Shown here: positions 1 to 54,993 of the stretch, piece by piece
Layout: every line of letters starts with the position of its first letter
How positions within the stretch are numbered: position 1 is the stretch's first letter
NCBI RefSeq assembly: GCF_000331305.1
Contig: NZ_KB217478.1
Coordinates: forward strand, 247,686 to 302,678
Length of the DNA: 54,993 bases
Reading direction: 5' to 3'
From: Calothrix sp. PCC 7103
GTDB lineage: Bacteria; Cyanobacteriota; Cyanobacteriia; Cyanobacteriales; Nostocaceae
Notes under the pieces: generated by a model
Database searches by the model: none
Seen by the model: the letters and a program-made list of their open reading frames with translations, nothing else
Told to the model about the DNA's origin: nothing
Translations under genes and position numbers: made by a program

Positions 1-420
1 GCAATAAGGACATCAACCATTTTTGATGTGGTTGGAGAAAACTGACGCAAAAAAGCGCAATCGTTGTGACCACCAAAGTTCAATCGGATTCAAATCAGGA
101 GAATATGGTGACATATAAAGAACACTGGCGCCAACGGATTGAATCAAAGGTTCAATTGCAGTTACTTTGTGAGATGGTAAAAAAGTCGCATCTGGATATT
201 TTTCTACCATTTGAGCTAGCTGGATTGGATGAAAGTCTAATTGACTCTTCATAGCTCCACCTTGCTTTTGCGGCTCTAAGTTACCTTCAGTTTTCTTTAT
301 CTCAAGCAATTTTTGCACAAAGCTTTTGCGCTCCATCGAATCTAGAGGCAACTTTTCTGACCGAAGTATTGCCTTGCTCGTAAGCTTTGACTATTTTTTC
401 TCGCTCATTCGATTGAGTAA
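1..420 (-). pseudogene. IS630-family transposase fossil, runs off the left edge
   Basis: Read on the minus strand this is a degenerate IS630/Tc1-type DDE transposase. The N-terminal helix-turn-helix part is readable at about 340-420 (EKIVKAYEQGNTSVRKVASR). A one-base shift near 335 then leads into KSFVQKLLEIKKTEGNLEPQ. An internal deletion joins the N-terminal part (MVEKYPDATF) directly to the C-terminal catalytic motif YSPDLNPIELWWSQ, so the first catalytic aspartates are missing. A second shift, consistent with one extra T in a T run near 50, displaces the ending (frame LRQFSPTTSKMVDVLI), which continues beyond base 1. It cannot make an active enzyme. The family call rests on the PDLNPIE motif and is confident; the exact IS is unknown. 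Confidence 0.85.
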
Positions 421-1335
421 GCTCTCATTACCTTTGTTGATGCACATTTTTTTAGTGTACCTCATTTACCTGCAATCTGCTGTATTTCACCAGACTTAAT
501 CGACAAAAACATATACAACATTATGTGAAATTATTTAAATACTTTTATTGTTGTATATTTGTAGCCGTTAACGCATAGCAATCCTATATGGTTTTTGAAA
601 AATTACATTTATATAAAGACGCAATTAATCCCTACCTAAGCAGAAAAGGCTCGCTTACGGGAAAACACAAAGTTATACGCATCTTTGCAACGCGATTTTC
701 AAAAAAGAATTAGGTTTGCTATCTGTTATACAATATATAAATAACATACTTCATCATCAGAACAATGTTTCGTACTTTACACTTTTAATCAAGTTAGTAG
801 TCTATGAGGGGGTGACGAAAACCCGTGAAACTGAAATGCAGCAATAGTTTTAAGCACGTGTGCCATAAAAAGATAAACATTATTTTTAGAGTTTCTTAAT
901 TTTATTTTCGATAAGCTTCGTACAAAAGTCTTATTTCTCCGTTGGAAAAGGTTGCTGAATTTACTTTAGTCTTTCGAGAGTTCACTCTTCTATAATCCTT
1001 ACTGCATAAGCTTTTAAAGCTAGATTGCCACCCCGTCAGCGCGCTATCACTATAATCCAAACTTGAAGACGCTCTTTATAAGTATTCCTGACAACCGAGA
1101 ATATTGTGCATTTTGTAAATATATCTATATGCATAAATAAATGGTATTGAATAAGGATAAATACTCAAACTACATAAATAAGTCTTATCGGCAATCAATC
1201 GGAAACTGTAAAGCATGCGAAAGTTGTTATTTTTTGTTACGTAAAAATGTGAAGTAATGAAAAGTTTGCCTTATCACTATGTCCTCTTGACAAAAGTGAA
1301 ATTTTCTTAACCTGTCAGGAATGACTCAACTCTAA
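421..1335. other. Non-coding stretch without a recognised gene
   Basis: About 0.9 kb of AT-rich sequence between two transposase fossils. I saw no recognisable protein fragment on either strand, no tRNA and no strong hairpin. It is most likely decayed mobile-element or intergenic DNA. Confidence 0.5.
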
Positions 1336-1867
1336 CTTGTTACCAATGGTTGTGGTGTACTTAGTTGGCGAATACCCTGGAATTTCCGCGTTTGGAGAGG
1401 AAAGGGCGCCACTTCCCCAGCAAAATTGGGATTAAAAATGGTTAAATCTTTACCAAAAAAATTAACCAAGCACTTTAAGGAGGTAATGGTTATAGTAGAT
1501 ACAGGCTTCGGTAGTATTCAATTTATACACGGTGTTCGAGAGAACAAATATCACATAATTGCTGGCATCGCTTGTACTCATAAGTTAGTTGATGGGCGCA
1601 GTGTCACCCAATTACATAAACGAGGACAGCAACTTTATCTGAGCGGGTTTGAAGTTTCCTGTTTATATATCCTGGTATTATTTTAAATGCCATGATGGTA
1701 AGTACGAGAAACGATTTGTTATTTCTACCAAGGCTTTGAAGGCTAGTACCATTACAGGCGTGGGGCAAACGGCGATGGCAGATAGAGGGTTGGGTTGGTT
1801 TAAAACCGCAAAACACCGTCGGGTAAGGGAGCGTGATATCCGACCTAGAAAGCGTAGAAGTAGTTGA
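1336..1867 (+). pseudogene. IS4-like DDE transposase fossil with frameshifts
   Basis: A reading frame opens just after a stop near 1335 and runs without an ATG through WRIPWNFRVWRGKGATSPAK into KHFKEVMVIVDTGFGSIQFI. That segment holds a DDE-type aspartate (VDTGFG). Near 1650 the product shifts frame and continues as KFPVYISWYYFKCHDGKYEK and FVISTKALKASTIT. A further shift near 1760 gives the WGKRRWQIEGW segment typical of the C-terminal catalytic glutamate region, and then recognisable sequence stops. The N-terminus and C-terminus are both missing. The IS4-like assignment is from motif memory; that it is a broken transposase is much surer than the family name. Confidence 0.75.
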
Positions 1868-2073
1868 CATCAAACCCTAATTATGAGTGTCAATAAAATC
1901 AGACATTCAGGTGCCGATCTTATTGATGCGAGAGACTTCTGCCCTCTGTCTATGTGCAGGCACCGGGTTTATTGTTAAGAGGCGCCTGTCAAATGTTCGC
2001 TCGGTAGAAATTTTGGGAAACCTATGTGTAAAACCAAGCCAAATTATTCTTTTATAAATAACCTTAAGAAAAC

Positions 2074-2550
2074 ATGAAAATACTACCTTACGATAGCTTT
2101 ACAATTTCTACCCCAGATTCGGTAACTGTAGTTGTACAACGTTTGGATGCAAAAATAGAAGTTCCTTTCCTATTGGGATTCTCAACAAAAGATAGACCTT
2201 ATCAAGGAACTGTTTCTGAACAAGGTTTTAAAATCACGCGCAAAGTCTATCGCAAATTATTTATACCAGTAATTAAAGGACGCTTTGAAGTCCAATCACA
2301 TCAAACAGTCGTGTCTGTAGAAATGAGTCTACATCATGCGGCTATCGGATTTTTAGGTTTTTTCTGTTTGTCTTGGTATAGTGTAATTCTGCCAAATATT
2401 TTACAAAGTGCTGCAACAGTTGGTCTTAGCGCTATATTTCCAGCGATACTTCCGATATTCTTAATTATCGTTTGGCTATCTTTTTGGTCAGAAGTAAGTA
2501 GAAGTCGTAGCGAACTGGCAAACATTATTCAGGGAAACGAAGATATTTAA
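2074..2550 (+). CDS. Conserved hypothetical membrane protein, 158 aa
   Basis: The first ~90 residues are soluble and beta-rich (MKILPYDSFTISTPDSVTVV). They are followed by two hydrophobic segments at about 108-126 and 129-152 separated by only a few residues, so the protein is probably anchored with both ends in the cytoplasm. It resembles small membrane proteins found repeatedly in Nostocales genomes, for which I know no function. The ATG at 2074 fits the start of the conserved N-terminal segment. It stands alone between a transposase fossil and a cruciform-forming repeat, so the context does not suggest a role. Confidence 0.7.
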   Translation: MKILPYDSFTISTPDSVTVVVQRLDAKIEVPFLLGFSTKDRPYQGTVSEQGFKITRKVYRKLFIPVIKGRFEVQSHQTVVSVEMSLHHAAIGFLGFFCLSWYSVILPNILQSAATVGLSAIFPAILPIFLIIVWLSFWSEVSRSRSELANIIQGNEDI

Positions 2551-2570
2551 GTGATATGAGTTTAAAGTTA

Positions 2571-2647
2571 AACCTAGATAGCAGAATACTTGGCTATTAA
2601 AGATAGAAAGCAGTTCTTATCTCTGTTTTCACCTTTATCTAGGTTTG
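2571..2647. repeat. Inverted repeat downstream of the 158-aa gene
   Basis: AAACCTAGATA near 2572 is mirrored by TATCTAGGTTT ending at 2647, with a ~50-base interior that itself has AGATA/TATCT complementarity. It sits just after the stop codon at 2550, so it may terminate that transcript or be a small mobile repeat. There is no T-run typical of an intrinsic terminator. Confidence 0.4.
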
Positions 2648-2806
2648 GCCGCTAGCTAAGGTTTACTTAACGAACGAGTATATGATTTCTTCAAAAGGCG
2701 CCCGTAAAGGGTTGGTTGAGGAGAGCATTACGTACTGTACCTTCTCACAACTTTTATAGATTGAAATTGCAGGTGCCTCCATGACGATAACTGCGACGTA
2801 GGGTAG

Positions 2807-2868
2807 GGTGCGTGAAAGCACTGCAATGAAAGCGTTACATTGCTTGATAGTAATAGCTTTCACGCACC
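2807..2868. repeat. Perfect 13-bp inverted repeat with nested inner hairpin
   Basis: GGTGCGTGAAAGC (2807-2819) is perfectly complementary to GCTTTCACGCACC (2856-2868). Inside the loop GCAATG (2823-2828) pairs with CATTGC (2838-2843), so the whole 62 bp can fold as a two-level hairpin or cruciform. The GGTGCGT/ACGCACC ends resemble a repeat common between genes in filamentous cyanobacteria. A minus-strand frame across it (2663-2902) has no protein-like features. Confidence 0.6.
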
Positions 2869-3029
2869 ATTTATACGTTAAGTAAGCCACTACTTTCCGC
2901 AAATATACTTTGAGTTTTTAAGTGCCATGCTATATTAGAACTTGAAAGCGCTCACTTGTTAAGAAAACGGCGCCATTTCTAAAAGTGCGAACATAAGTGT
3001 TGCTAATTGTAGTTTATGTAGTTAATTTA

Positions 3030-3191
3030 TCATTCAACTTTTTCAAATTGGTCTTTACTGGCGCCGCATACAGGACACACCCAATCGTCTGGTATTTCTT
3101 CAAACGGTGTACCTGGATTGATATTACTATCTGGATCGCCCGATTCTGGGTCATATTCGTACCCGCAAACTATACATATGTATTTGTCCAT
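3030..3191 (-). CDS. Rubredoxin, 53 aa
   Basis: Small iron protein with a single Fe(Cys)4 centre, used as a one-electron carrier. The frame starts at ATG 3191 and reads [20 protein letters not shown], with the first metal knuckle C6-x2-C9-G. The usual acidic and aromatic middle leads to [19 protein letters not shown], the second knuckle C39-P-x-C42-G. Length (53 aa) and spacing are those of free-standing bacterial rubredoxins, without the C-terminal membrane helix of the photosystem II assembly rubredoxin RubA. A G-rich stretch (GGGG) 8 bases before the ATG may serve for ribosome binding. No redox partner gene is next to it, so its partner is unknown. Confidence 0.93.
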
Positions 3192-3328
3192 CTTTATATC
3201 CCCGTAAAATTCACTTAAAATTAATTATAAGGAAAATTCGCTATAGCGGATTTATATTGTTTCCCAGGAAAGTATTCGGCAAGTATTGCGACCCACAAAC
3301 CTGCTGAAACTGCGACACTTACTTACTT

Positions 3329-3407
3329 ATATCATGTCCGGGAGCGTAACCATAATAAAATCATTGTAGAGACATGGTAATTATGGGTAATCAACCGGAC
3401 ATGATAT
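3329..3407. mobile_element. MITE-like 79-bp element with 13-bp terminal inverted repeats
   Basis: ATATCATGTCCGG (3329-3341) is perfectly repeated in inverted orientation at 3395-3407. The 53-bp interior has no coding sense but keeps some further complementarity (GTAACCATAAT against ATTATGGGTAAT). Both flanks are CTTA/CTTC tetranucleotide tracts, so the element may sit inside a simple repeat. Its size and structure suggest a non-autonomous miniature element; no matching transposase is visible. Confidence 0.55.
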
Positions 3408-3446
3408 TACTTCCTTACTTCCTTACTTACTTCCTTACTTACTTAT
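3407..3446. repeat. Short tandem repeat of TTACTTCC / TTACTTAC units
   Basis: About five imperfect 7-8-base units of TTACTTCC/TTACTTA run head to tail after the miniature element, and a shorter (ACTT)n tract precedes it at 3317-3328. This resembles the short tandemly repeated sequences known between genes in filamentous cyanobacteria. Confidence 0.6.
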
Positions 3447-3707
3447 GTATCACTGCTCTCTTACGAACTGTTGATGTTAGTTCGCGATCAAAATTTATTT
3501 TGTTTGAATTGATGTAAACTTTGTTTGAATTGTTTTTTTATTTTTTTTATTCAGTATTAATGCTGATGATTATTATTCAATAATACAGAAATATATTATT
3601 TATTCGGGTTAAATTAAGCCAAGAATATCTTAACGACAATGGAGGCAAAAGAATAGGAAAAAACATCCAAGTGATAGTCATACTTCAAAACACGTTTTAA
3701 TAATGAT

Positions 3708-3810
3708 TATAGCGTTTATTAAAAAATTATGGTTAGCTTGAATTTATTTAATGTTTTTCCAAAAAGCAACAAAACTTCAAGCTATAATTACTAAAATGGA
3801 AAACGCTATA
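3708..3810. mobile_element. Imperfect fold-back element, ~36-bp arms
   Basis: The left arm (3708-3743) begins TATAGCGTTT and ends TTAGCTTGAA. The right arm (3775-3810) is its imperfect reverse complement, from TTCAAGCTA to AACGCTATA. The outer 10 bp and inner 9-10 bp match well while the arm centres have drifted. There is no coding content. A miniature transposon or a long RNA hairpin would both fit. Confidence 0.5.
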
Positions 3811-4246
3811 TTCTTTTTATTTATATAAAATCTACTTCTATTATCTTATCATATTTATAAACACATACGTTTAAAAATTAATGATGTACATATTAATAAT
3901 TGGAAAAAATAAAAAGTCTTTTCTAAATATTACTCTATATAAATATGGATTTACTTCGCAATAATTAATACTGATTAATTGTGAAATTGATTTACGATTT
4001 ACGTATCCTTCCATTTGTCATTGTGTTTTCCTACGGACATGAACATGGGCGTTCATGCAGTGTTCGCGTCTGTAAGTAAACTGCAAATTGGAGATGACTT
4101 TACATTTATATTATTGCTATAAGCGGCGCCTGAAATCTTGAATAGAACAAAGTACTAAAAATATATTATTACTTCCTTAGAGTTTGGAGGCGCCGACTTA
4201 GTTAATTAGGTATCACCGCTTTTGTACTGACTAAATAATTTTACTA
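3811..4246. other. AT-rich leader upstream of the CBS histidine kinase
   Basis: No gene is recognisable. GAACATGGGCGTTCATG near 4040 contains a short dyad (GAACATG/CATG..C), and two GGCGCC sites lie at about 4124 and 4188. The promoter of the kinase at 4247 should lie here but I could not pick it out with confidence. Confidence 0.4.
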
Positions 4247-6487
4247 ATGTTTACACAAACATTTGTCTTAGGACAAGCTGAAGTGCAATCCGTAATCGTT
4301 AAAGATGCGTTGGTAGTTGCAGCTAATGCAACGGTAATGGACGCAATCTCGCAAATGAGTGGCATCCGTACCAGTTGTTTAGCAAGCACAATAGCTGATA
4401 GTCCATTGGATGTATATATAGAGGCTCGATCTAGCTGTGTGTTAGTTGTTGAAGGCAATGATTTAGTAGGTATTTTTACAGAGCGGGATGTAGTGCGGCT
4501 TATAGCGCAACAGCAATCACTCCACGACTTGAAGATAAGTGAAGTGATGACTTATCCCGTAATTACCTTGCGCGAGTCTGTTTTTACAGATATATTTTTT
4601 GCAATAAATCTACTCCAACAATATCGTATTCGTCATTTACCCATTGTTGATGAGTCCGACCGTCTTGTGGGATTGGTGACTCATGAGAGTTTGCGACAAA
4701 GCTTGAGACCTGCCGATGTATTGCGGTTGCGTCTTGTGGCAGAGGTGATGAGTTCTCTTGTAATTTGTGCGAATCCTGAAACTTCAATGATCGCAATTGC
4801 CCATTTAATGGCAAAGCATTGTGTTGGTTCTGTGGTTATTGTTCAAAACCATAAGCAAATGGAGATACAACCAAAACCATTGCCTATTCCTGTAGGAATT
4901 ATCACAGAACGTGATCTTGTGCAGTTTCAAGCATTGAATTTGGATTTAGAAACTTGTCCAGTAGAAGCGGTTATGAGTACGCCAATTTTTACAGTAAAAC
5001 CAGAGGATTCTTTATTGACGGCGCAGCAAATTATAGAGCAGCGTCGCATTCGCAGGGTAGTAGTGACGGGTTCTGAGGGGCAATTATTGGGCATTGTAAC
5101 CCAGAGCAGTCTTTTACAAACACTTAATCCTCTAGAGCTATACAAGTTTACTGATATTTTAGAAAAGAAGATATTGCAATTAGAAGCAGAAAAAATTGAG
5201 CTTCTGCAAAATCGTACAATTGATCTAGAACAGCAAGTAAGTGATCGTAAGCAAACAGAAGCTCGCTTGACCGAAACCAATCAACAACTTGCTATTTCCA
5301 ACGAGCAACTTGCCAGTGCCACTCGCCACAAAGACGAGTTTCTCGCCAACATGAGCCACGAACTTCGGACACCCCTAAATGCGATTTTGGGTATGACAGA
5401 AGGTTTACAAGAGGAATTATTTGGCAACACTAGCGAACAACAAAAAAAAGCACTGCAAACTATCGAACGTAGTGCTACTCACTTACTCGAGTTAATCAAT
5501 GACATCCTCGATTTGGCAAAAATTGAGGCCGGACAAGTTGAACTTGAATGTGCCTCTACCTCTATTAGTCCGCTTTGCCAAGCAAGTATAGTATTTATCA
5601 AACAACAAGCCTATAAAAAACGCCTCAAACTTAACCTTCAGTTGGCGCCTCATCTACCCGATTTGCTGATCGACGAACGTCGGATGAGACAAGTCTTGAT
5701 TAATCTGCTCAATAATGCTGTGAAATTTACCCCAGAAGGTGGCAGCGTTACCTTAGAAGTAACCTTAGAATTGTCCACTAATACTAATACCCCCAACCAA
5801 ATGCGTTTTGCTGTAATTGATACAGGCATTGGCATTGCCCCAGAGGAATTAAAAAAACTATTTCAACCTTTTATTCAAATTGATAGTGCCCTTAACCGTC
5901 AATATCAAGGAACTGGTTTGGGACTATCTCTGGTTAAGCGGATTGTGGAACTACATGGCGGTAGTATCGGGGTAAGTAGTCAAGTTGGTATGGGCAGTCG
6001 ATTTATGGTGTATCTTCCCTGTCCAGATGTATCGCTTCCATTCACCAAATCTTTGCCAAAATTGGTTCCTCAGTTAACTAGCACTACTTTAGAAGCGGTT
6101 ACAACTTTGCCCCTAATTTTGATTACAGAAGATAATGAAGCCAATATTATCACCATTTTTAGTTACCTCAAAGCTAAAGGGTACCGCTTGATCTTGGCAA
6201 ATAACGGTCAAGAAGCGATTGCATTAGCGCAGGAAAAGCAGCCCGATTTAATTTTAATGGATATCCAAATGCCAGGAATGGATGGATTAGAAGCAATGAA
6301 ACGTATCCGCAGTCATCCCAACATGGCTAATATCCCAATTATCGCTTTGACTGCCCTTGCAATGGCAGGAGACCGCGAAAAATGTTTAGAAGCTGGAGCC
6401 AATGACTATCTAACTAAGCCAGTCAAGCTTAAGCAATTAACTGCCACAATTGAACATTTTTTAAGTATATCAGGTAAGCGTAAATAG
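4247..6487 (+). CDS. Hybrid sensor histidine kinase with four CBS motifs and C-terminal receiver
   Basis: This is a 746-residue cytoplasmic hybrid two-component kinase. Residues ~15-150 and ~160-300 form two CBS pairs, each with the characteristic VGI(F/I)TERD and VMTxP segments; such modules bind adenine nucleotides. A coiled coil (~300-365) follows, then the HisKA domain with H-box SHELRTPLNAILG (phospho-acceptor His371), a HATPase_c domain with the N-box (LINLLNNAVKFTPEGG) and G boxes (DTGIGI, GTGLGLSLV), and a receiver with DLILMDIQMPGMDG (phospho-acceptor Asp672) and the conserved K of LTKPVK. There are no transmembrane segments, so an internal signal such as energy charge is likely. No output regulator is adjacent, so the target is unknown. 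Confidence 0.95.
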   Translation: MFTQTFVLGQAEVQSVIVKDALVVAANATVMDAISQMSGIRTSCLASTIADSPLDVYIEARSSCVLVVEGNDLVGIFTERDVVRLIAQQQSLHDLKISEVMTYPVITLRESVFTDIFFAINLLQQYRIRHLPIVDESDRLVGLVTHESLRQSLRPADVLRLRLVAEVMSSLVICANPETSMIAIAHLMAKHCVGSVVIVQNHKQMEIQPKPLPIPVGIITERDLVQFQALNLDLETCPVEAVMSTPIFTVKPEDSLLTAQQIIEQRRIRRVVVTGSEGQLLGIVTQSSLLQTLNPLELYKFTDILEKKILQLEAEKIELLQNRTIDLEQQVSDRKQTEARLTETNQQLAISNEQLASATRHKDEFLANMSHELRTPLNAILGMTEGLQEELFGNTSEQQKKALQTIERSATHLLELINDILDLAKIEAGQVELECASTSISPLCQASIVFIKQQAYKKRLKLNLQLAPHLPDLLIDERRMRQVLINLLNNAVKFTPEGGSVTLEVTLELSTNTNTPNQMRFAVIDTGIGIAPEELKKLFQPFIQIDSALNRQYQGTGLGLSLVKRIVELHGGSIGVSSQVGMGSRFMVYLPCPDVSLPFTKSLPKLVPQLTSTTLEAVTTLPLILITEDNEANIITIFSYLKAKGYRLILANNGQEAIALAQEKQPDLILMDIQMPGMDGLEAMKRIRSHPNMANIPIIALTALAMAGDREKCLEAGANDYLTKPVKLKQLTATIEHFLSISGKRK

Positions 6488-6673
6488 TCGCAAGTGTTTC
6501 TTGTCCAGCAATTAGCACAACCACTCAATAATATGTCATTGCTGATTAACACAGTTGATACATTGATAGTCTTACAAATCGACTTTAATTATATGTACTA
6601 TGACTAATATTATACAAAACAAATTAAGAAATTACTATATACTAAAGTATGTTTTTTACATCTAGATCAAATC

Positions 6674-7189
6674 ATGAAGAAATTCTTTAGTTTTTCCTTG
6701 GTACTTATTGTTCCGATGTTAGTAATTGTGCCTCTAGTAAAAGAAGCAATTGCTCAATCCTCATATTCCCGCCTGAAAACACAATTTACAGGCAACAATA
6801 AATGTCTAGATATTATTAATGATGGTGAAAATAACAAACCTATCATGGCTGATTGTGGTAATTTCTCAGGACAGCTTTGGGAAATAGAACGTACCAAAAA
6901 TTCTGGCTATTTTCGTTTAAAAACACAATTTACAGGCAACAATAAATGTCTAGATATTATCAATGATGGCGAAAATAACAAACCTATCATGGCTGATTGT
7001 GGTAATTTCTCAGGACAGCTTTGGAAAATAGAACGTACCAAAAATTCTGGCTATTTTCGTTTAAAAACACAATTTACAGGCAACAATAAATGTCTAGATA
7101 TTATCAATGATGGTGAAAATAACAAACCTATCATGGCTGATTGCGGGAATTTCTCAGGACAGCTTTGGAATACGCCGAAAGCTATTTAA
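6674..7189 (+). CDS. Secreted triple-repeat protein, ricin-B/beta-trefoil-like
   Basis: A signal peptide (MKKFFSFSLVLIVPMLVIV, cut after about AIAQ) precedes three tandem 48-residue repeats starting at bases 6770, 6914 and 7058. Each carries RLKTQFTGNNKCLDI, two cysteines and the end motif GQLW, which matches the QxW signature of ricin-type lectin repeats. Three such repeats would make exactly one beta-trefoil. The copies are nearly identical in DNA and protein, so the triplication is recent or kept uniform by gene conversion. The third copy ends a few residues after QLW. A carbohydrate-binding extracellular protein is the best guess, and the ligand is unknown. The ATG at 6674 is the only start that includes the signal peptide. 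Confidence 0.8.
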   Translation: MKKFFSFSLVLIVPMLVIVPLVKEAIAQSSYSRLKTQFTGNNKCLDIINDGENNKPIMADCGNFSGQLWEIERTKNSGYFRLKTQFTGNNKCLDIINDGENNKPIMADCGNFSGQLWKIERTKNSGYFRLKTQFTGNNKCLDIINDGENNKPIMADCGNFSGQLWNTPKAI

Positions 7190-7396
7190 TACAAACATAA
7201 TACTAGCAGACACATTACATGGAGTTGCACGAACATTATTCTTGGCGCCAGTAGTAGGCGATTTCACGGCACGGCAAATTTTAGTATTTACAGGCACCGT
7301 ATTCCTACCTCTAAAGTTGGAGTAATGCTTTGTCAAATTATTCTGAAGGGGTGACAAAGGCGCCTACAATCACGATAAAACATTCTATTTTGTTTT

Positions 7397-8356: not shown

Positions 8357-8398
8357 ATATTAGCTTGTAAGTAAACGGAGTTTTACCTTTATGGTAGT

Positions 8399-46025: not shown

Positions 46026-46038
46026 AAACCAGCTTTAT

Positions 46039-46893: not shown

Positions 46894-46909
46894 ATAATTT
46901 TAAATTTTA

Positions 46910-47692
46910 TTAGATTTTAGATTCTTTATTGTTGTAAAAACTGCGATGATGTAAAACTCCACCAAAAGTCATGGCTAAGTTATCGTCTGTAAATACGTCT
47001 TCTACCGAACCATAAGCAAGAATAGTCCTATTGATAAAGACTACTTGGTCACAGAAAGTAGAAATTGACCCCAAATCATGAGTTGAAATTAAAATTGTAT
47101 GTCCTTGTGCGCGTAGTGTTATTAGTAATTCAATAATTTCTTTTTCTGTATTCGCATCTACACCTGTAAATGGTTCATCCAAAAGCATCACTGTTCCCTG
47201 TTGCGCTAATGCTCGTGCCAGAAATACCCGTTTACGCTGTCCACCCGAAAGTTCCCCTATTTGGCGCCGTCTTAAAGAGTACATATCTACTTGTTCTAGT
47301 GTTTGTTGAACAATTCGATGGTCTTCAGCAGTAGGTATTCGTAACCAGTTCATATGTCCATAGCGTCCCATCATCACAACATCTTCGACGCTGACAGGAA
47401 AATTCCAATCTACTTCTTCAGACTGAGGTACATAAGCGACTATTTGCTTTTGTTGCGCTTTCCTGATTGGTAAATCTTTAATTACTACTCTTCCCCGATG
47501 TGGAGTTAAGAAACCCATGATTGCTTTAAATAGAGTAGATTTGCCACCTCCATTCGGTCCAACTAATGCAGCAATACATCCAGGGTTTAACTCGAAACTC
47601 GCATTGTGCAATACGACTTTTTCGTGGTAAGCAACATTAATATCTTCAACTAAAACACTTATAGGTTCGACTGTCATATATTTATTACGCAT
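46910..47692 (-). CDS. mntA: Metal ABC transporter ATP-binding protein (MntA/ZnuC family)
   Basis: This 260-residue ATPase powers the adjacent permease. Walker A is GPNGGGKST (residues 45-53), the Q-loop is [20 protein letters not shown] (typical of metal-chelate ABC ATPases), the ABC signature is [15 protein letters not shown], Walker B is [14 protein letters not shown] and the H-loop is ISTHDLGS. The C-terminus ends shortly after VLHHRSF. In-frame ATGs at 47692 and 47677 are both possible starts, with no strong ribosome-binding site at either. It is ~43 bp downstream of the binding-protein gene and 16 bp upstream of the permease gene, an operon arrangement. Confidence 0.93.
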
Positions 47693-47735
47693 AAATTACA
47701 GAGTAAAACAAATGTAAGTTAATACAATATATTCT

Positions 47736-48701
47736 TCATTTAGATTTGCCTAATAATCCCTGTACTAAGGTATAAGCGTTATACCTCTGAAGGTCTAAAA
47801 ATGTTGCAGCAGGTTTTCCTACCTCAGACAACGAGTCTACGTACAACACACCAGCAAAAGTTGAATTACTTTCTCTTGCGACTTGTCTTTGGGCTTTATC
47901 GCTAACGGTTGTTTCACAAAAGACTGCCGGAATTTTATTTTGCCTGACAGTATTTATAACTTTGGCTATTTGTTGCGGTGTTCCTTCCTGTTCAGAGTTC
48001 ACTGCCCATAAATATGCTTCTTGCAAACCGTAGTCGCGTGCCATGTAAGAAAAGGCACCTTCGCAGGTAACTAAATACCGTTGAGTTGGCGCCAAAGTAG
48101 CAAGTTGTGTTTTTACTTCTTGACTTACCTGCTGTAACTTCTGAATATAAGCTTTAGCATTCGCGTTATAGGTTGCTTCGTTTGCGGAGTCAAGCTTGAC
48201 GAAAGCCTTACGAATATTCTCTACATATATAGCTGCATCATTAGGAGACATCCAAGCGTGGGGGTTTGGTTTATTTAGATAAGAACCACTAGCTATGAAG
48301 ATTGGTTTAACTTCATCACTGAGATTTGCAGAAGTCACATTTCTTACAGACCCCATGAATTTTTCAAACCACCGTTCTAACCCCAACCCATTGAATAAAA
48401 CTAAATCAGCTTCTTGTGCGCGTTTAATATCGCTAGGTGTTGGTTCATAATCATGAATTTCGGCGCCTGGTCTTGTGATAGATTCTACAACTAACTTATC
48501 TCCTGCTACATTGCGAGCCATATCAGCCAATATAGTAAAAGTCGTTAGCACCTTTTTCTTCCCATCAGTTTTAGCTGACGGTGAAATTTGCGCTTGTGTA
48601 GAATTATCTGAAGAATTTGGTTCAGAAGCACACCCAAAGACAGTTGTCAATATCAGCGCACTCAATATAATGCACGCTGGCGATTTTAGCTGATTCATCA
48701 C
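47736..48701 (-). CDS. mntC: Metal-binding lipoprotein of the ABC transporter (MntC-like)
   Basis: This cluster A-I (PsaA/MntC/ZnuA) periplasmic binding protein is lipid-anchored at the cysteine of the lipobox (LTTVFGC, near residue 24). Metal ligands of the family are visible: the histidine of GAEIHDYEPTPSDI, the histidine of NPHAWMSPNDAAIYVENI, the glutamate of VTCEGAFSYMARDYGL and the aspartate of LYVDSLSEVG. The His-rich loop typical of zinc-specific ZnuA is absent, which favours manganese (or iron) over zinc. ATG 48698 directly follows the GTG at 48701; AAGGG just upstream suits the ATG. The upstream 85 bp are AT-rich with ATGATAA and ATAATGA half-sites that might be a Fur-family operator, which I cannot verify. 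Confidence 0.9.
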   Translation of the reverse strand: MMNQLKSPACIILSALILTTVFGCASEPNSSDNSTQAQISPSAKTDGKKKVLTTFTILADMARNVAGDKLVVESITRPGAEIHDYEPTPSDIKRAQEADLVLFNGLGLERWFEKFMGSVRNVTSANLSDEVKPIFIASGSYLNKPNPHAWMSPNDAAIYVENIRKAFVKLDSANEATYNANAKAYIQKLQQVSQEVKTQLATLAPTQRYLVTCEGAFSYMARDYGLQEAYLWAVNSEQEGTPQQIAKVINTVRQNKIPAVFCETTVSDKAQRQVARESNSTFAGVLYVDSLSEVGKPAATFLDLQRYNAYTLVQGLLGKSK

Positions 48702-48786
48702 ACCCTTATTGCCATTTTTATTTAACTTTATTCATTTTTATCTCATTATTTTATCATATTGTTCTCATAATTTCGGTAACAAATGA

Positions 48787-49695
48787 TTAGTTATCCGTTA
48801 CATCCGTTGCCAGTAATGCTTCTTGGATGGCTTTTGCGACCCACTCGCTTATTACTAACCCAGATGCTCTGGCTGCGTCTTGTATCAAAGGTTGTAAATG
48901 TGAGGGAAGCTGAATATTTAAGTTAAAGGTTTCTGATTGTTGACTTTTAGTCTCTGCTGTGGTTTTACGGTGACTCCAATGCTGACATGCTGCTCCCCGT
49001 TCATTGCCATTTTTCTCTAGTAAGCTTAATTCTCCGAGTTTATTGCAGTAAAAGCTTTGAGGATTTTCTGGTAGTTCTTTACTACAGTACGAACAGTTCC
49101 AACAGCTACGAGTTTCTTCAGTCTCTATATATATATTATCTGGATTCGATTTTTTATTTGGCGCTGCGCCTTTTCTACGATATTCATTTACTACACAGGC
49201 TACATGTACTGCTGTAACTTTTCCATTTGGCGCCGTGGAAACAACTTGATTCCAAGCTTCTTGCTGCTGTTTGGGGGATAATGCTACTAAAGGACGAATT
49301 TGGCGCTCGTTCGCTGGTAGGATTTGAATTTTTTGTCGTCCATAAGCGACAGAAACATCATCATCAATAATATTCTCTGAAATATTTCTGTAAATAACTG
49401 CTGCATCAATTAACTGGTAAGCAGAACGTCGAGACATTTCCCAACGTGTCATGCAATATTCCTCAAACGTTTTGTAGTTTTCACGGTACAAACGCTCATC
49501 TCTAATTCTAGCTAGCGCACGTCCTATTTCCCAAAAAGACTTTAAACACTCTTCGACTCTTGTCTCTAAATACCTAAATTCTTCTGCTTCGGCTGTTGTT
49601 AGCACATCTTCACTATCTTCACTAATATCATCATGCAAAGGCGCCTTTCTATGTTGGTTGGAATTATCCAAGCTAGATAATATGGGTGACATCAA
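48787..49695 (-). CDS. DNA-binding accessory protein with C-terminal ribbon-helix-helix-like domain
   Basis: This is a ~302-residue protein. The N-terminal half is helical and acidic (LTTAEAEEFRYLETRVEECL) with an HTH-like region around YKTFEEYCMTRWEMSRRSAY, which resembles proteins on plasmids and genomic islands. A cysteine cluster (CWNCSYCSKELPENPQSFYC ... AACQHW) probably binds zinc. The C-terminus, FNLNIQLPSHLQPLIQDAAR ASGLVISEWVAKAIQEAL, looks like a ribbon-helix-helix dimer. A strong AAGGAGG lies 10 bases before TTG 49695 and 13 before ATG 49692, so the start is ambiguous by one codon. It is divergent from another HTH gene, with tandem operator-like sites between them. I know no named family. 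Confidence 0.7.
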   Translation of the reverse strand: MMSPILSSLDNSNQHRKAPLHDDISEDSEDVLTTAEAEEFRYLETRVEECLKSFWEIGRALARIRDERLYRENYKTFEEYCMTRWEMSRRSAYQLIDAAVIYRNISENIIDDDVSVAYGRQKIQILPANERQIRPLVALSPKQQQEAWNQVVSTAPNGKVTAVHVACVVNEYRRKGAAPNKKSNPDNIYIETEETRSCWNCSYCSKELPENPQSFYCNKLGELSLLEKNGNERGAACQHWSHRKTTAETKSQQSETFNLNIQLPSHLQPLIQDAARASGLVISEWVAKAIQEALLATDVTDN

Positions 49696-49739
49696 TGCTG
49701 GTATTCCTCCTTTTTACGGCATAATGTATGATGTCGTTA

Positions 49740-49754
49740 CTAGGTGATACCTAG
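49740..49754. promoter_or_regulatory. Palindrome CTAGGT-GAT-ACCTAG upstream of the 302-aa gene
   Basis: This perfect 6-bp inverted repeat with a 3-base spacer lies 45 bp before the start codon of the minus-strand regulator, overlapping the probable promoter region. It is operator-like, and the adjacent GGCGCC (49755-49760) may be unrelated. Confidence 0.45.
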
Positions 49755-49788
49755 AGGCGCCATCGTCAAAACACGCTTTTTTTCACCC

Positions 49789-49829
49789 TGCAATTTCTAA
49801 ATTTGCAGGTTGCAATATCTAGGTTTGCA
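49789..49829. promoter_or_regulatory. Two tandem 19-bp operator-like sites, 22 bp apart
   Basis: TGCAATTTCTAAATTTGCA (49789-49807) and TGCAATATCTAGGTTTGCA (49811-49829) are near-identical, each with the inverted half-sites TGCAA-N9-TTGCA. The 22-bp period places them on the same face of the helix. They lie between two divergent DNA-binding genes, so binding by one or both of those proteins is the obvious hypothesis. A third TGCAATGCAAT follows at ~49832. Confidence 0.6.
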
Positions 49830-50088
49830 CAATGCAATGCAATAGTACATCAATGCTTAACATTTCTTAATATTGAAAAAAGTGTAGTTAAGAATACAGA
49901 AATTTGAGTGTAAAAGTGATACGAGAAAATAATCAAGAATTACTAAAACCCTTGTAAATATGAAAAATTTGGTTTTAAACTAGTTACTAGGGACTAATTC
50001 CTGAACCTCACAACCGCTCCCAAACAACAGAAGCATTCCGCTTTGGTTGGTAAACAGTGGTATAAAGACTACACAAAGTAAACTAACT

Positions 50089-50538
50089 ATGGAAAACAGG
50101 GCAACACTAGTGACTTGTAATTCCGGGTCTTCTACCATCCAGGAACGCCAACGACGATTAACAGTGTTGCTTGAGCATCTTACGGATGAAGGTTGGACTC
50201 AATCAACTATAGCGGAAGCGCTGGGCGTCGATTTTACAACTGTCTATCGATGGTCAAAGGGTAAAACAGTACCTGAAGCTGAATCTCGAAATTTCCGGCG
50301 CCTAGCTGCATTGACAGGGGGTGACGGTGCATCATTGGAACTATACTTAACTGGAAAAATACCGCTTGCAGCATATCGTCAAGGCAAGCAAACCTTGCAA
50401 ACCGACGACACACCACATCAAATACTTCCTCCAGAAAAAATTAAACAACAACTACTAGCACAAATATACTTATTAGACCCTGCGGATATTGCGGATGTTA
50501 TCTCTAACAGCGTGGCTTTTTTAGCAAAGCGCGCTTAA
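50089..50538 (+). CDS. HTH transcription factor, ~149 aa
   Basis: ATG 50089 (MENRATLVTCNSGSS) is preferred over the in-frame TTG at 50047, since neither has a clear ribosome-binding site and the upstream part is low in protein character. A helix-turn-helix of the XRE/Cro type is at ~20-70: ERQRRLTVLLEHLTDEGWTQ, STIAEALGVDFTTVYRWSKG, with W..G as in that family. EAESRNFRRLAALTGGDGAS follows, and then an uncharacterised C-terminal helix (LAQIYLLDPADIADVISNSV). Such proteins appear on cyanobacterial islands and plasmids. Its divergence from the 302-aa protein and the shared tandem sites suggest a small regulatory switch, by inference only. Confidence 0.75.
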   Translation: MENRATLVTCNSGSSTIQERQRRLTVLLEHLTDEGWTQSTIAEALGVDFTTVYRWSKGKTVPEAESRNFRRLAALTGGDGASLELYLTGKIPLAAYRQGKQTLQTDDTPHQILPPEKIKQQLLAQIYLLDPADIADVISNSVAFLAKRA

Positions 50539-50630
50539 ATAAACTGTCACCTGTCACCTGTCATGCTGAGGTACGAAGCATCTTCCAAGTTTTAAGTTGC
50601 TTTAAAAGTAAAAATTTGTCGAAATCGATT

Positions 50631-50866
50631 CCCCCTTGATAAGCTACGGTGTACACACAAGTCTAAAAAAGGGGGCTTCAGTGGCTTCGGAGGTAGGGCG
50701 GGGAGGAAGAATATGAGGCAAATTTGCTTCTTTTTGGATGCAAATTACCGCAAGAATAGTTCCTCAATTTCCCCACTTCAACCAGAATCCAGCCTCCAAA
50801 ACATCCAATTCTTCCCTGCCCCCGAAGCCAAGAAGTTGTGTGTACACGGTAGCCTTGATAAGGGGG
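50631..50866. repeat. 236-bp fold-back element with ~80-bp imperfect arms
   Basis: The left arm starts CCCCCTTGATAAGCTACGG then TGTACACACAAG (50631-50660). The right arm (50831-50866) is its reverse complement with small indels (TTGTGTGTACACGGTAGCC, then TTGATAAGGGGG). Inner stretches GGCTTCGGAGGTAGGG (50684-50699) and CCCTGCCCCCGAAGCC (50814-50829) also pair. It resembles a repeat family I have seen between genes of Nostoc relatives. Two small plus-strand frames inside (50713-50938) have no protein-like features. The insertion sequence on its right begins 8 bp after it. Confidence 0.7.
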
Positions 50867-50873
50867 GTTGGGG
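50866..50873. repeat. Probable target-site duplication of the insertion sequence (left copy)
   Basis: GGTTGGGG directly precedes the left inverted terminal repeat and recurs one base after the right one (52545-52552). An 8-bp direct repeat at both borders is what a transposase leaves on insertion. Because the sequence is G-rich and low in complexity, the exact edges are uncertain. Confidence 0.5.
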
Positions 50874-52543
50874 TAGGCTGTTTACTTTGTGGGAAAATGG
50901 CTAAAAAAAGTTCATACAGTTTTTGTGTCATTTTTTAGCTCGAAAATACGATTCTTCGTTGTGAGAGCATGGACTGACCAAAGACTTGTGATGACCATGC
51001 TTCCAAATCAAGGTATCGGATAGTTTCTAACGCTTCCTTAACTACAGAAGTTGTTAAGTTCATAGTACATAAACAAATACTTAAGACTGTCTGTCCTATT
51101 TGTTGAATAGGAGACCTAGAAGAAAACTGTTTATATTTACCAAAAAGTGATTCAATTACATCAGAAGTAGCTAAAAAAGTAGTTAATGGAGGAATTTTAG
51201 AACTTTCGTTAAGAAGATAATCAAGTATTTTTTGTTTGAAATCAGAATTGACATTAAAATTTAAGCAAGACATAAGAAATTCAAAGTTAGTTAAAGACTG
51301 TTGATTAATTCCATTAGTTTTAAGATAAGTTTCTAATGCTCTAGTCATTTCAACCATTTCATCCCACATTATAATGTCATCCTCATACTCTGCTAACCAT
51401 CCAAACTTATCATCTAATTTTTGCTTCAATAATTTTAGTTCAATATTTGGTTTTAAACTCGAAATAACATCAATTGAAGCGGCACCCATTTTTTGTGCCC
51501 AATTAATTAGTTTTCTACGTTAAAGAATCGGCATTGAGAGCGTTGAGATGGAGGTGAAAGAAAAGATAAATCTGTTTGTTGAACCTGATTTCTAGTCTGA
51601 TTACAACGTTCAACAAAGGCTTGATATTTCTGTGATGTCCCTAACTCGTGTTGAAGAATTAAAGCCATCCCATGAGTTACATCATAGGTATAAATTATGG
51701 AAGGATATTTTTGATTATATAGTTTAATTCCTTTTTCAAGATCGCTACCGTGATCTGCTATAATCTGAATTGGACAACCAACTGTATATGTTAATTTACT
51801 AAGTTTTTCCTCAATTAATTCCCCTCTAGTAGATTCCATCATTTCTAACATCAAAACTTCAACATCTTGATGTTCTAAACCTCGCCCCGAAGGGAAAACA
51901 TGCTCGGATAAATATTGTTGAGTTACGCCTAACACTAACAAACATTTTTGTTTACCTAATTGCGTTGTCAAATCAATTATAAAAAATCCCAATCATCACG
52001 ATGCTCTTTTTCTCTTTGAAGCTCATATAACCCACCCCGCCCTAGCCAATTTCTTATACTACTAAAACTTGGAATAGAAGTTTCCTCATCAGAGGCGCCC
52101 AATCTAAAATTTTTTTCAACAGCCCTTATCGTGTTCCCTGAAATAATAACTTGTTGTACTGCTAATTGTACTGTTTCAACGTAATAGTGATGTCCAACTG
52201 CAACCGTGCCGTCTATTGGTTCTGAAAATTCTTCCCCTTTTTTTCCCCTTCCGTAATTTCCTTACGGAGGAGGCGTAGTTCTTTCTCTGCTGTCATCGCA
52301 CGCTGTTTCCAATTTTCTCGTGAGGCAGTTAAATCTCGAATTTTTATCCCTAAAGCTCTCAGTTCTTTGTGCCTCAGAAGTGCTATTTCTTTCCAGTTAT
52401 CTCTGCTTTTTTTAAACAGACGTACTAAGCGTTTTGATTGGCTCTTATATTCCTTCATTCGCAGTCAACCCCCATTTAGCACTTTTAGACGTATAATATG
52501 TATGAATAAATATCATCCCTAGGCGCCCAAAGTCAACAGCCTA
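50874..52543 (-). mobile_element. Insertion sequence, ~1.67 kb, with 16-bp terminal inverted repeats
   Basis: TAGGCTGTTTACTTTG (50874-50889) is repeated in inverted orientation at 52528-52543 (TAGGCTGTTGACTTTG on the minus strand; one mismatch). The repeats bracket a single transposase pseudogene on the minus strand and are flanked by GGTTGGGG on both sides. The element sits at the edge of the fold-back repeat on its left. The family belongs to a cyanobacterial transposase group that I recognise by sequence but cannot name by IS number. Confidence 0.7.
50935..52458 (-). pseudogene. Transposase of that insertion sequence, broken by three one-base shifts
   Basis: The product starts at ATG 52458 with a basic coiled coil (MKEYKSQSKRLVRLFKKSRD). 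Near 52245 a shift at an A7 run leads to EEFSEPIDGTVAVGHHYYVE and SIRNWLGRGGLYELQREKEH. Near 51986 a shift at a T6 run (DWDF to FIIDLTTQLGKQKCLLVLG) enters the catalytic domain with IDL, IIADHGSDLEKGIKLYNQKY and TYDVTHGMALIL. Near 51520 a shift at an A4 run leads to KLINWAQKMGAASIDVISSL and the C-terminal TSDVIESLFGKYKQFSSRSP with the candidate catalytic glutamate. All three are consistent with single-base loss or gain in homopolymers. The middle one is also a T-TTT-TTA heptamer. Confidence 0.85.
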
Positions 52544-52546
52544 GGG
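52517..52546. repeat. Palindrome CCCTAGGC/GCCTAGGG at the right end of the insertion sequence
   Basis: The perfect 8-bp arms (52517-52524 and 52539-52546) overlap the right terminal repeat. They lie ~45 bp beyond the stop of the calpain-like gene and could also terminate its transcript. Confidence 0.5.
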
Positions 52547-52589
52547 TTGGGGGGATTTTCTTAACTTAATATCATCTCAAAGTTTATAT

Positions 52590-54206
52590 TTATGCAGCGC
52601 TGATGATATCGAAGTTACTCTTGAAATCATTGTAGAAAATTTCTAGAATTCCTTTATTCTCATAACCGTTGGTTCGTGCATGGGGATTATATAATGTAAT
52701 TTTACCAGATGTAATGTTTGCGCTTACGATTACATACTCGTGATTGCCAAATATTCCAGCACGTGGATTGGATATTGTTCCGGTAGTTAAAGCTTTACCA
52801 GTGGCAAGTTGATTTGCAATTTCGGATAAGCTGAACATGTTTCCTGTACGACCAGAGTAGTTAATGTCAGAGTAAAAAGTACCTTTTGTTCCAGTAATTG
52901 ATGGCATTGCCTTAAAACCGTTACCTCCTTCGATACTTTCATAGCTGTTTTGAGAATATTGTTGTTGAATGCTACCAAATTCTGCGAACTGAGCATAAGC
53001 TTTTTCTGCTAAAGCTACCCACAAACCTAAATTTAGATTGTCATAGTTTGCGTATCTTTGCCCACTATAGTATTTTCCTCCTTCCCAACCTGCTACGTTG
53101 GTTGGAAGAAAACTATCAACTGTCACATAATCTGCTGAAGTTGTAACGTTACCATTTAGCTGACCAAAGAATTTCACGGTGTAACTTCCGTCACCGTTGT
53201 TGATGAACATATTTCTGATGACTGACGGACGTTGATTTGCTACTGCACCTAAAGAAGATAAGAAATAACAAGTTCCTAACCAACCTTGCTGAATATCGCT
53301 ATAGCTAAAATTGTTATCTTGCCCAAATAAGCTAGCACTTCTCATATCCTGGTAAGTGAAAGTGTGTCCTGATGCTGCTGTTGGTCTATCTCCACCAAAA
53401 AACCACTTGTCTAGCAAATTCGTCATTACTTGGGCGCCGCTGCCAGCAACTAGATTTTGCAGTACACTACCTTTATAGGTATTTGCAGTATTACCATTGA
53501 CTATTTTGTTGGATAGAACCCGAACGTGGTCTTCCATGCTAAAACGACTCCAGGAAGCGACTATTGTTTTCAAGTCTGTTAATTCAACAGAATCAACTAC
53601 TCCCCCATCTTGGGTATCGCGAAAGATATTAATCATTTCATTGCGGTTTAGTCTGTTGTCTGCTCCAAGTTGTCGAGCTATGGCAATAACTTCTTTATCT
53701 TTCAGGTTTTGACTAAACCAGTCATTTACAACCGTGCTGGCAATTGTAAATGGTTGCTGTACAACATTACTTATCGTATTCGCTTTGTCATATGCAACTG
53801 CCCACAGTGTATGAGTTCCATTCGCTAAATTGAATTGACTTAAATTCAATGCATAATTGAAATTAGCCGTATTCCCCTTAACTGTGAAAGTCGTTGCATC
53901 ACTTACGTTCAGCGTACTTCCATTATTCAGACGTATTTGGAAATCAACTCGTGTAATATCTGTTCCACCGTTTCCATCTATTACAGAACCATTTGTAATA
54001 GTAATTGACTCGGTTGGATTAAAGGTTGTTTTATTTAGATTGAATTGCAGTGAGTTTGGTGCTGTATTTATTTGAATTGGTGCAAAAGTAATACTCCGCT
54101 CAACTATATTACTTACGGCGCCACTTTTATCGTATGCAATACCCCATACACTGTAATTTCCTGCTGTTAAGCCTAAATTAGCAAGTGATATGTTATGGTT
54201 AAACAT
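52590..54206 (-). CDS. Calpain-like cysteine protease with Ig-like repeats, probably 5'-truncated
   Basis: The N-terminal 160 residues hold one and a half copies of an Ig-like module: ISLANLGLTAGNYSVWGIAY is the second half of one, and SLQFNLNKTTFNPTESITIT to NGTHTLWAVAYDKANTISNV is a full one. A linker leads to a calpain (C2-family) domain: QQGWLGTCYFLSSLGAVANQ with the nucleophile Cys313, then NLGLWVALAEKAYAQF, GNHEYVIVSAN with His489 and LYNPHARTNGYENKG with Asn507. The full triad is present. Because the first module is cut in half, and the frame is open upstream of the ATG to a stop without a start or signal sequence, the original gene was probably longer. Secretion of the present form is doubtful. 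Confidence 0.82.
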   Translation of the reverse strand: MFNHNISLANLGLTAGNYSVWGIAYDKSGAVSNIVERSITFAPIQINTAPNSLQFNLNKTTFNPTESITITNGSVIDGNGGTDITRVDFQIRLNNGSTLNVSDATTFTVKGNTANFNYALNLSQFNLANGTHTLWAVAYDKANTISNVVQQPFTIASTVVNDWFSQNLKDKEVIAIARQLGADNRLNRNEMINIFRDTQDGGVVDSVELTDLKTIVASWSRFSMEDHVRVLSNKIVNGNTANTYKGSVLQNLVAGSGAQVMTNLLDKWFFGGDRPTAASGHTFTYQDMRSASLFGQDNNFSYSDIQQGWLGTCYFLSSLGAVANQRPSVIRNMFINNGDGSYTVKFFGQLNGNVTTSADYVTVDSFLPTNVAGWEGGKYYSGQRYANYDNLNLGLWVALAEKAYAQFAEFGSIQQQYSQNSYESIEGGNGFKAMPSITGTKGTFYSDINYSGRTGNMFSLSEIANQLATGKALTTGTISNPRAGIFGNHEYVIVSANITSGKITLYNPHARTNGYENKGILEIFYNDFKSNFDIISAA

Positions 54207-54551
54207 ACCCCAGCGATGAATGGCACTTACTTAAGGGTAAACGTATTGGTATGATAGGCTTTCACGCTTTGGTGATGGCGATTAACACGGTCGGCGCCTA
54301 CATCAATACCAATACGTATCAACTACACATTCACGTGAATTAAATTAATTTATAGGTGGTGAACAACAATTTATCACTTTCCTAAATTTAACTATCAATT
54401 ACAAGATTTCGATTAATACTTAAATACTACTTAATATTTACTAATAAAACCGGAGGGCGCGTTACTAAATCGCGCCGACGGCGGGCGCCTGTAACGCTAT
54501 ATTTAAGAAAAAGTAGGTGGGTGAAAATAAACCATACTTGTTTTGTTCCGG
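54207..54551. other. Rearranged region upstream of the protease
   Basis: ACGTATTGGTAT (54239-54250) and ATACCAATACGT (54306-54317) are inverted repeats around a short frame that reads MIGFHALVMAINTVGAYI. This looks like the border of an insertion or deletion that removed the protease's front. The region to the right is rich in CG-containing repeats (GGCGCC near 54290 and 54483). Confidence 0.4.
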
Positions 54552-54639
54552 TTAAGAACGCTAAAGTCCAGCTCTGAAAGGATTACAGCAGTTTTACATT
54601 TCGTTAAATAGTTGTAAATTTTTCCGTCCTCCTACTTAG
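54552..54639. repeat. Second copy of the 88-bp PadR upstream segment
   Basis: It aligns without gaps to 10346-10433 with about 10 differences. The TTTACA-N14-TGTAAA dyad and the last ~30 bp are best conserved. No PadR-like gene follows. Within the next 60 bp GGATGTAAA occurs twice. Confidence 0.65.
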
Positions 54640-54838
54640 AAGTTTGTAAAAAAGTAGGTAAACTCAAACACTCAGGATGTAAATCAGGATGTAAAATTGT
54701 TGCTGTAAAATCTTTAAAAATTAGCTTTTCAGCAATTTATATTTCTGAATCCTGTTATACTTTATTAAGTCTGCCTAAGAGATAAAAATGTCATACAATC
54801 ACTACCAAAAGAATAAAAGGTGTTTGTATGAATATACT
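54640..54838. other. Intergenic stretch with TGTAAA repeats
   Basis: CAGGATGTAAAT and CAGGATGTAAAA follow each other near 54680, after TTGTAAAAAAGTAGGTAAAC. There is no gene before the transposase fragment at the right edge. Confidence 0.4.
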
Positions 54839-54993
54839 TTATGCAGCAATTTGAGGTTTGGTGGCATTTCTTGGTTTGGTCATAAGAGGATATGATTTTT
54901 TTCTACGTTTTATAACTCTTGGCTCAGTACGGTCACTACGTTCTGGAAGTAGCTTTTGTACAATTTTATCAAGCATCGTCTTATATAAAATTT
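54839..54993 (-). CDS. C-terminal end of a transposase, cut by the right edge
   Basis: The minus-strand frame, open to the window edge, reads LDKIVQKLLPERSDRTEPRV then IKRRKKSYPLMTKPRNATKP and stops at 54839. The ending R.EPRV.KRR.K.YPLMTKPR is one I know from IS4-type transposases of cyanobacteria. Only ~50 residues are inside the window, so whether the gene is intact cannot be judged. Confidence 0.7.
   Translation of the reverse strand, partial: ILYKTMLDKIVQKLLPERSDRTEPRVIKRRKKSYPLMTKPRNATKPQIAA

Follow-up and report, generated by a model that had tools for sequence, protein, structure and literature searches.

We analyzed a stretch of 54,993 nucleotides from Calothrix sp. PCC 7103 (contig NZ_KB217478.1, positions 247,686 to 302,678; hereafter the window), throughout which the hexamer GGCGCC recurs. 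The word appears to be the highly iterated palindrome (HIP) of a Calothrix/Dulcicalothrix genus, where it would hold the place that HIP1 (GCGATCGC) has in the rest of the family. We consider it probable that GGCGCC is a methylated HIP, inherited within the clade and maintained either by weak selection or by a repair bias of equivalent effect. The repeat itself is already known, having been described in the part of a 2015 paper that treats alternate HIPs (PMC4390886); what is new here is its genus-wide inheritance, its conservation in place, a footprint at the third base (C3), and a solitary enzyme at a fixed locus.

The original prediction had put about 76 GGCGCC sites, and no HIP1, in the window. 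We counted 77 sites, compared with a mean of 3.82 and a maximum of 8 in 100 dinucleotide shuffles, and HIP1 is indeed missing (0 vs 0.20 expected). Among the 6-base palindromes of the window, GGCGCC shows the highest excess. Scored on mechanical open reading frames (ORFs) of at least 110 aa, 22, 6 and 17 sites fall in codon phases 0, 1 and 2, respectively, and the other 32 lie outside ORFs or across ORF edges; thus, as had been claimed, no single reading frame accounts for the word. The whole assembly (11.58 Mb, 12 contigs) contains 17,704 copies, one per 654 bp, and 163 copies of HIP1, or 14.1 per Mb. In a 389.5-kb sample (37.8% GC) the first-order ratio of observed to expected counts (O/E) is 22, Markov expectations being computed with GGCGCC left unmasked, and one 20-kb sample from each of two further large contigs gave 32 and 37 sites vs 1.33 expected. 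Hence the genome-wide count, the check proposed with the prediction, is nowhere near expectation, and HIP1 is rare outside the window as well. The reversed word CCGCGG occurs 8 times in the assembly; since this control is itself avoided, probably owing to an Eco29kI-type system, the O/E of 22 is a fairer figure than the ratio to CCGCGG. Gaps of less than 100 bp between neighbouring sites make up 8.0% of all gaps vs 15.1% at random, and those above 2 kb make up 3.5% vs 3.8%.

The abundance of GGCGCC sets the genus apart from its family. We refer to PCC 7103 as G000; its six genus-mates, numbered G001-G006 without regard to the order given here, are Dulcicalothrix desertica PCC 7102, Calothrix sp. 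PCC 7716, NIES-4105, HK-06 (NIES-2101), and the metagenome-assembled genomes C42_A2020_038 and FI2-JRJ7; g0, g2, g3 and g4 denote genus samples. All seven genomes carry 7,475-20,380 GGCGCC (1150-1711 per Mb) and 31-163 HIP1 per genome, whereas the other 65 family genomes carry 0-530 (at most 108 per Mb) and 535-7,734, in line with the suggestion that this lineage had switched its HIP. A gross excess of a GC-rich palindrome (about 1000-2000 per Mb), low HIP1 and a candidate methyltransferase, by which a HIP is recognized, are all found in the genus. The best explanation is that the GGCGCC state and the methyltransferase were both inherited from the ancestor of the genus. No second GGCGCC lineage was securely found in a class survey of 388 genomes. 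Several GC-rich genomes of one family (f34) exceed 1000 GGCGCC per Mb, yet they also hold 1,200-3,300 copies of the reversed word. Single 20-kb samples gave 5 sites vs 6.2 expected in G079, for which composition suffices, and 43 vs 13.8, a threefold excess, in G330 (55.7% GC). Outside the family, GGCGCC and the reversed word number 9,489 and 2,450 in G330, 1,169 and 25 in G343, and 3,074 and 165 in G454; these three are possible weaker or independent cases of enrichment. Within the family, G028 (10.7 Mb) is low in both HIP1 (535) and GGCGCC (326), and may have a third repeat, or none.

The sites are also conserved in place. Pairwise alignments were made from 61-500 kb of each of the seven genomes. 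At a mean divergence of 6.0%, the conserved fraction is 0.861 for GGCGCC (1,272 site pairs) vs 0.731 for all hexamers; it is 0.819 (498 site pairs) vs 0.462 at 13.4% divergence and 0.700 (269 site pairs) vs 0.340 at 17.3%. These pairwise values share species and are therefore non-independent, and the near group omits the pairs with PCC 7103, which tend to be lower (0.695-0.845) and pool at 0.815. Extrapolating the near pairs at a constant rate gives 0.715 and 0.649 for GGCGCC at the two larger divergences, so that the observed loss is smaller than predicted; all hexamers drop slightly under their own prediction (0.496 and 0.405). Between g4 and g3, five other palindromes are conserved at 0.33-0.40, compared with 0.82 for GGCGCC, and fourfold C/G codon positions are identical in 238 of 263 cases within sites vs 1291 of 2461 outside (90% vs 52%). 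Within the sites, this identity is 124/138 at word positions 1, 2, 5 and 6 and 114/125 at positions 3 and 4. Noncoding sites, few in number, are kept in 8 of 17 cases from g4 to g3 and 10 of 15 from g3 to g4, as against 75/224 and 70/206 for GC-rich control hexamers. In the most distant member, G001, sites of the other members survive less often (45 of 73 coding sites of g4) than its own do in them (45 of 53 in g4), an asymmetry in line with the lower GGCGCC density of G001. As for the window, 15 of its 35 alignable sites (Table 1) read GGCGCC in every aligned relative and 2 in none.

Losses and gains were polarized on four tip branches, using ungapped hexamers on which the outgroups agreed. 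From 668 ancestral sites, 75 losses were found (64 single-step and 11 with more than one change), along with 11 gains, 4 of which are not single-step. Single-step losses by C3-to-T, which yield GGTGCC or GGCACC, number 46 vs 25.5 expected from average base rates, i.e. 1.8-fold commoner, whereas those of all other kinds number 18 vs 83.2, i.e. 4.6-fold rarer. Control losses relative to expectation are 0.89 for GC-rich hexamers, 0.78 for CG-centred hexamers and 0.74 for all hexamers. By tip, PCC 7103 has the highest loss (26/140), compared with 14/196, 20/203 and 15/129 in the relatives.

The C3-to-T rate at GGCGCC is 0.034 (46/1336), while C-to-T elsewhere proceeds at 0.026 at other GCGC (27/1,028), 0.019 at other CpG outside GCGC (334/17,812) and 0.014 at C outside CpG. 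The two other transition classes within the word, which together comprise 11 events, are about 8 times slower than C3-to-T. Near misses of GGCGCC have an O/E of 0.10-0.81 in four samples, except GGTGCC/GGCACC at 0.92-2.22. Among 306 GGTGCC/GGCACC in near comparisons, 174 stand opposite GGCGCC, 72 are shared and 60 stand opposite something else; shared cases make up 332 of 504 among scrambled controls. Genome-wide, GGTGCC plus GGCACC amount to 1.9-2.8 times the reversed word in all seven genus genomes; the corresponding range is 0.27-1.20 in 18 searched genomes from the rest of the family. This C3-to-T pattern seems to match what is expected for deamination of 5-methylcytosine at C3, which would make the conversion of methyl-C to T the main route of site loss.

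A solitary methyltransferase had been anticipated as well, and a candidate is present in all seven genomes. PCC 7103 has 15 matches to PF00145, and NCBIfam named the methyltransferases at superfamily level only. With the methyltransferases of PCC 7103 as the queries, two were full-length in all seven genomes, namely L005 (313 aa, 81-99% identity in the mates) and L010 (370 aa, 76-96%). Homologue counts for both refer to the strongest matches listed. On this basis, L005 homologues (54-73%) occur in 27 of 113 other relatives, and the 24 genomes that have a HindVP-type nuclease (PF09519) all lie within these 27, with the nuclease adjoining the methyltransferase according to the listed coordinates. 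The HindVP nuclease is found in 0 of the 7 genus genomes, where the methyltransferase is present alone. The median GGCGCC density is 0.86 per Mb in the 24 nuclease-bearing relatives vs 7.3 in the 86 with neither gene (p = 4.5e-5, by a Mann-Whitney test that ignores phylogeny and sets aside three methyltransferase-only genomes at 0.5, 17.3 and 42.6 per Mb).

The recognition region (TL-type) of L005 is nearly identical to that of the nuclease-linked enzymes in an alignment of 26 of 35 rows, 9 having been dropped by a motif and length filter (G006 among them). The similarity includes one G or A position, which we take to be the one that the BsaHI paper ties to the R degeneracy. By family and recognition region, L005 thus belongs to the BsaHI/HindVP type, with GRCGYC as its predicted target and the central C as the predicted methylated base. 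In a tree without G006, the six genus sequences form one clade with a support of 99/99. L005 is flanked by the same neighbours in PCC 7103 and five relatives; in HK-06, one copy (83% identity) is found at another place, and a second (95-98%) is broken across contig ends next to another neighbour's orthologue, so that the locus is probably the same in this seventh genome too. An enzyme of this solitary type would turn the sites into GG(m5C)GCC. From the enzyme family and the loss spectrum together, we infer that this methylation takes place and that L005 is responsible for it.

That another C5-methyltransferase, L010 or L006, lies behind the repeat seems rather improbable to us. L010 is as widespread in the genus as L005, but at least 43 of the 65 HIP1 genomes that make up the rest of the family carry full-length orthologues of it (68% identity or more) among the matches listed, and it is not favoured for this reason. 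L006 is a second copy of the GRCGYC type, sharing its recognition region with L005; L006-like genes are full-length in G000, G002, G003 and G005 and present as a 244-aa open frame in G006, but none was seen in G001 and G004 among the matches listed. A third possibility is L011, an Eco29kI-type methyltransferase that occurs in six of the seven genomes by match pattern only. The adjoining nuclease points to CCGCGG, the Eco29kI-type target, and may explain the avoidance of that word. Two further C5-methyltransferase genes were noted. L004 has an internal stop, and relatives in G002, G003, G004 and G006 match it at 86-95%; L003 is longer (658 aa), has L005 a few kb away in both PCC 7103 and G004, and has orthologues also in G001, G003 and G006.

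Base composition, codon use or the spread of mobile elements could be invoked because phase 0 (Gly-Ala) is the commonest phase, with 322 of the 609 coding sites sampled from G000 and 381 of 716 in G002. Nevertheless, the shuffles, an O/E of 22 at 37.8% GC, the presence of sites in all phases and in noncoding DNA, the high conservation of fourfold positions within sites relative to those outside, and the 0.33-0.40 conservation of five other palindromes over the same distance lead us to reject composition and codon use, and we give this explanation hardly any credence. GGCGCC might also be created and kept by a Vsr-like enzyme that carries out very-short-patch repair at T:G mismatches, as Vsr is known to enrich the words targeted by m5C-methyltransferases elsewhere among bacteria. 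Yet PF03852 was matched in 0 of 41 genomes searched, the genus included, vs 5 of 14 control genomes; word positions 1, 2, 5 and 6, beyond the action of Vsr, are kept as well as 3 and 4; and C3-to-T is the commonest loss. Vsr is therefore rejected as the driver, being very improbable.

A more serious alternative is that the repeat is a by-product of repair. In the model of Elhai (2015), mismatch repair guided by G-methyl-C favours mutations that create GGCGCC, and about one site per kb would arise without any function. The type of enzyme found here methylates the very C that the model requires (PMC2413257), near misses are depleted apart from GGTGCC/GGCACC, and single-step gains exceed expectation. 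On the tips, moreover, 2 of 3 ancestral GACGCC/GGCGTC and 4 of 25 GGTGCC/GGCACC turned into GGCGCC, compared with 0 of 6 AGCGCC/GGCGCT, although these numbers are small and some mispolarization is possible. Against the model, the same positions persist over 13-17% divergence, where a ratchet of turnover predicts otherwise unless restoration occurs in place, and losses on the tips far outnumber gains. The genus-wide persistence contradicts Elhai's statement of non-persistence, and not the repair step itself. We regard a mere by-product of repair as unlikely but worth keeping in view.

Weak selection for the methylated mark is favoured, with an in-place repair bias as the main alternative, since the sites stay put rather than turn over. 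Apart from the leakage at C3, all six positions are held in place whatever the codon phase, and the force acting on them would amount to about 2Ns = 3. By our own arithmetic, a 22-fold excess at mutation-selection balance implies 2Ns of about 3.1; losses should then proceed at about 0.15 times the neutral rate, and gains at about 3.3 times. The observed ratio for losses other than C3-to-T is 0.22, a rough fit. The mark might be read in the choice of strand during mismatch repair or in chromosome organization. The fuller proposal, that the whole genus replaced HIP1 by a palindrome that is methylated differently and that each of the 7,000-20,000 sites per genome is weakly selected (2Ns of about 3) as a methylated mark, is one we put forward tentatively, as plausible but somewhat short of probable.

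Several observations weigh against selection on a methylated GGCGCC. Single-step gains number 7 vs 0.64 expected, an 11-fold ratio that exceeds the prediction from 2Ns and leans towards repair bias, so that part of the effect may be of that kind. C-to-T is equally fast at CCGG (11/278) and TCGA (44/1296); the C3-to-T rate alone is thus not diagnostic, although CCGG and TCGA may be methylated too. Two of the 16 genomes searched in the order (G073 and G082) also have GGTGCC plus GGCACC at more than 1.9 times the reversed word. Only GGCGCC among the four forms of GRCGYC is in excess, GACGTC having an O/E of 0-0.03 and GACGCC/GGCGTC 0.13-0.33, so that a GRCGYC enzyme leaves the GGCGCC-only excess unexplained. 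Finally, loss is independent of the distance to the next site (p = 0.59), and a spacing function is unsupported.

The coordinates of the features are collected in Table 1. The genus samples contain other words of unusual frequency. CGCGCG is 3.8-7.1-fold over-represented (g0, g4, g2, g3) but, unlike GGCGCC, its position conservation is 0.39 (g4 vs g3). GATC (O/E 0.12-0.23), GGCC (0.10-0.18), GACGTC, TGCGCA, GTCGAC and CCGCGG are strongly avoided.

Table 1. Positions of GGCGCC sites and associated features (window numbering unless a locus or contig is given)
Feature	Position	Remark
GGCGCC sites (first bases)	127..54489: 127, 1405, 1981, 2697, 2969, 3060, 4125, 4189, 5644, 7244, 7359, 7520, 8571, 10674, 10734, 10969, 11193, 11575, 14168, 14384, 14921, 18349, 19489, 20839, 22482, 22646, 22874, 23588, 23780, 24075, 24359, 25670, 25983, 26293, 28877, 28907, 30007, 30375, 30394, 30842, 32173, 32545, 32825, 33468, 33796, 35158, 35780, 36012, 37927, 37959, 38100, 38936, 39396, 39825, 40309, 40377, 40711, 41834, 42121, 42440, 42937, 43594, 44288, 45974, 47263, 48088, 48462, 49229, 49640, 49756, 50297, 52094, 52522, 53433, 54117, 54293, 54484	palindromic, no strand
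Sites alignable with at least one of six genus-mates	30007..50302 (34 sites); 5644 (one site)	35 of 77
Places with GGCGCC in at least two genus-mates, absent from the window	33345..49170	n = 17
Such places reading exactly GGTGCC or GGCACC	34627, 39286, 41708, 44661, 46210, 46255, 46675	7 of 17
Stretch with parts recurring many times across the genome	50874-54993	79-100% identity, like mobile elements; includes sites 52522, 54293 and 54484
Eco29kI-type nuclease gene	L011:2221-2856	adjoins methyltransferase
L004, C5-methyltransferase gene	G000:C7:7848143-7849318	
L003, C5-methyltransferase gene	G000:C7:7999837-8000820	

The purpose of HIP repeats is an old open question, and seven genomes that share the exchange of one word for another, five of them 5-7% apart, make it testable. 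They allow the maintaining force to be quantified, and they point to one base and one enzyme. If the genus exchanged its word without losing the mark, HIPs would serve a function that calls for a methylated palindrome every 0.6-1 kb, whichever word it may be.

In its passages on alternate HIPs, Elhai 2015 reports GGCGCC in two Calothrix strains, PCC 7103 and, from 19 kb of sequence, D253, and notes two GrCGyC-type methyltransferases, none of them recognizable as GGCGCC-specific (PMC4390886). Among the matches listed in our literature search, no further paper on the GGCGCC repeat appeared. The published figures for PCC 7103, 14 HIP1 per Mb, 159 CAGGCGCC per Mb and a GATC count 16% of that expected (PMC4390886), agree with ours (14.1 per Mb, 165 per Mb in a sample, and a GATC O/E of 0.17). 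Both accounts have the same word, a near-absent HIP1, two methyltransferases of the GrCGyC type and a depletion of GATC. The same passages describe exceptional HIPs as sporadic and not found in clades, which is taken as a sign of selection for HIP1 (PMC4390886). For GGCGCC, the material there was one genome plus 19 kb of another; the seven genomes studied here are a counter-example to it and remove the argument that alternate HIPs lack persistence in a clade. Conservation in place, the loss spectrum and the fixed locus of the solitary enzyme likewise go beyond what those passages contain. The repair ratchet proposed there, guided by G-methyl-C, requires methylation at the central C, stated to be known for no such enzyme (PMC4390886). 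M.BsaHI, which methylates the central C of GRCGYC, as was shown among others by the protection of a GGCGCC site from HhaI (PMC2413257), fills this requirement.

The repeat resembles HIP1 in being a GC-rich palindrome that occurs about once per kb, genome-wide, and is linked to solitary methyltransferases, at least as HIP1 is portrayed in the text cited above (PMC4390886). It differs from the HIP1 of most cyanobacteria in the word and in the methyltransferase, and HIP1 is nearly absent from the genus. As for restriction systems, BsaHI and its homologues HgiDI and HgiGI recognize GRCGYC, with HindVP listed as a putative homologue (PMC2413257). GRCGYC was detected by RIMS-seq in H. influenzae Rd (PMC8565308), while in Beggiatoa a GRCGYC enzyme was predicted and its methylation was not detected (PMC5920184), according to the portions of these reports that concern the motif. 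L005 is homologous over its full length to the enzymes that adjoin HindVP nucleases, with nearly the same recognition region, and in this respect resembles the BsaHI/HgiDI/HindVP systems. The difference lies in the nuclease and in the sites: relatives that bear the nuclease have few GGCGCC, whereas the genus is without it and has a 22-fold excess of the word.

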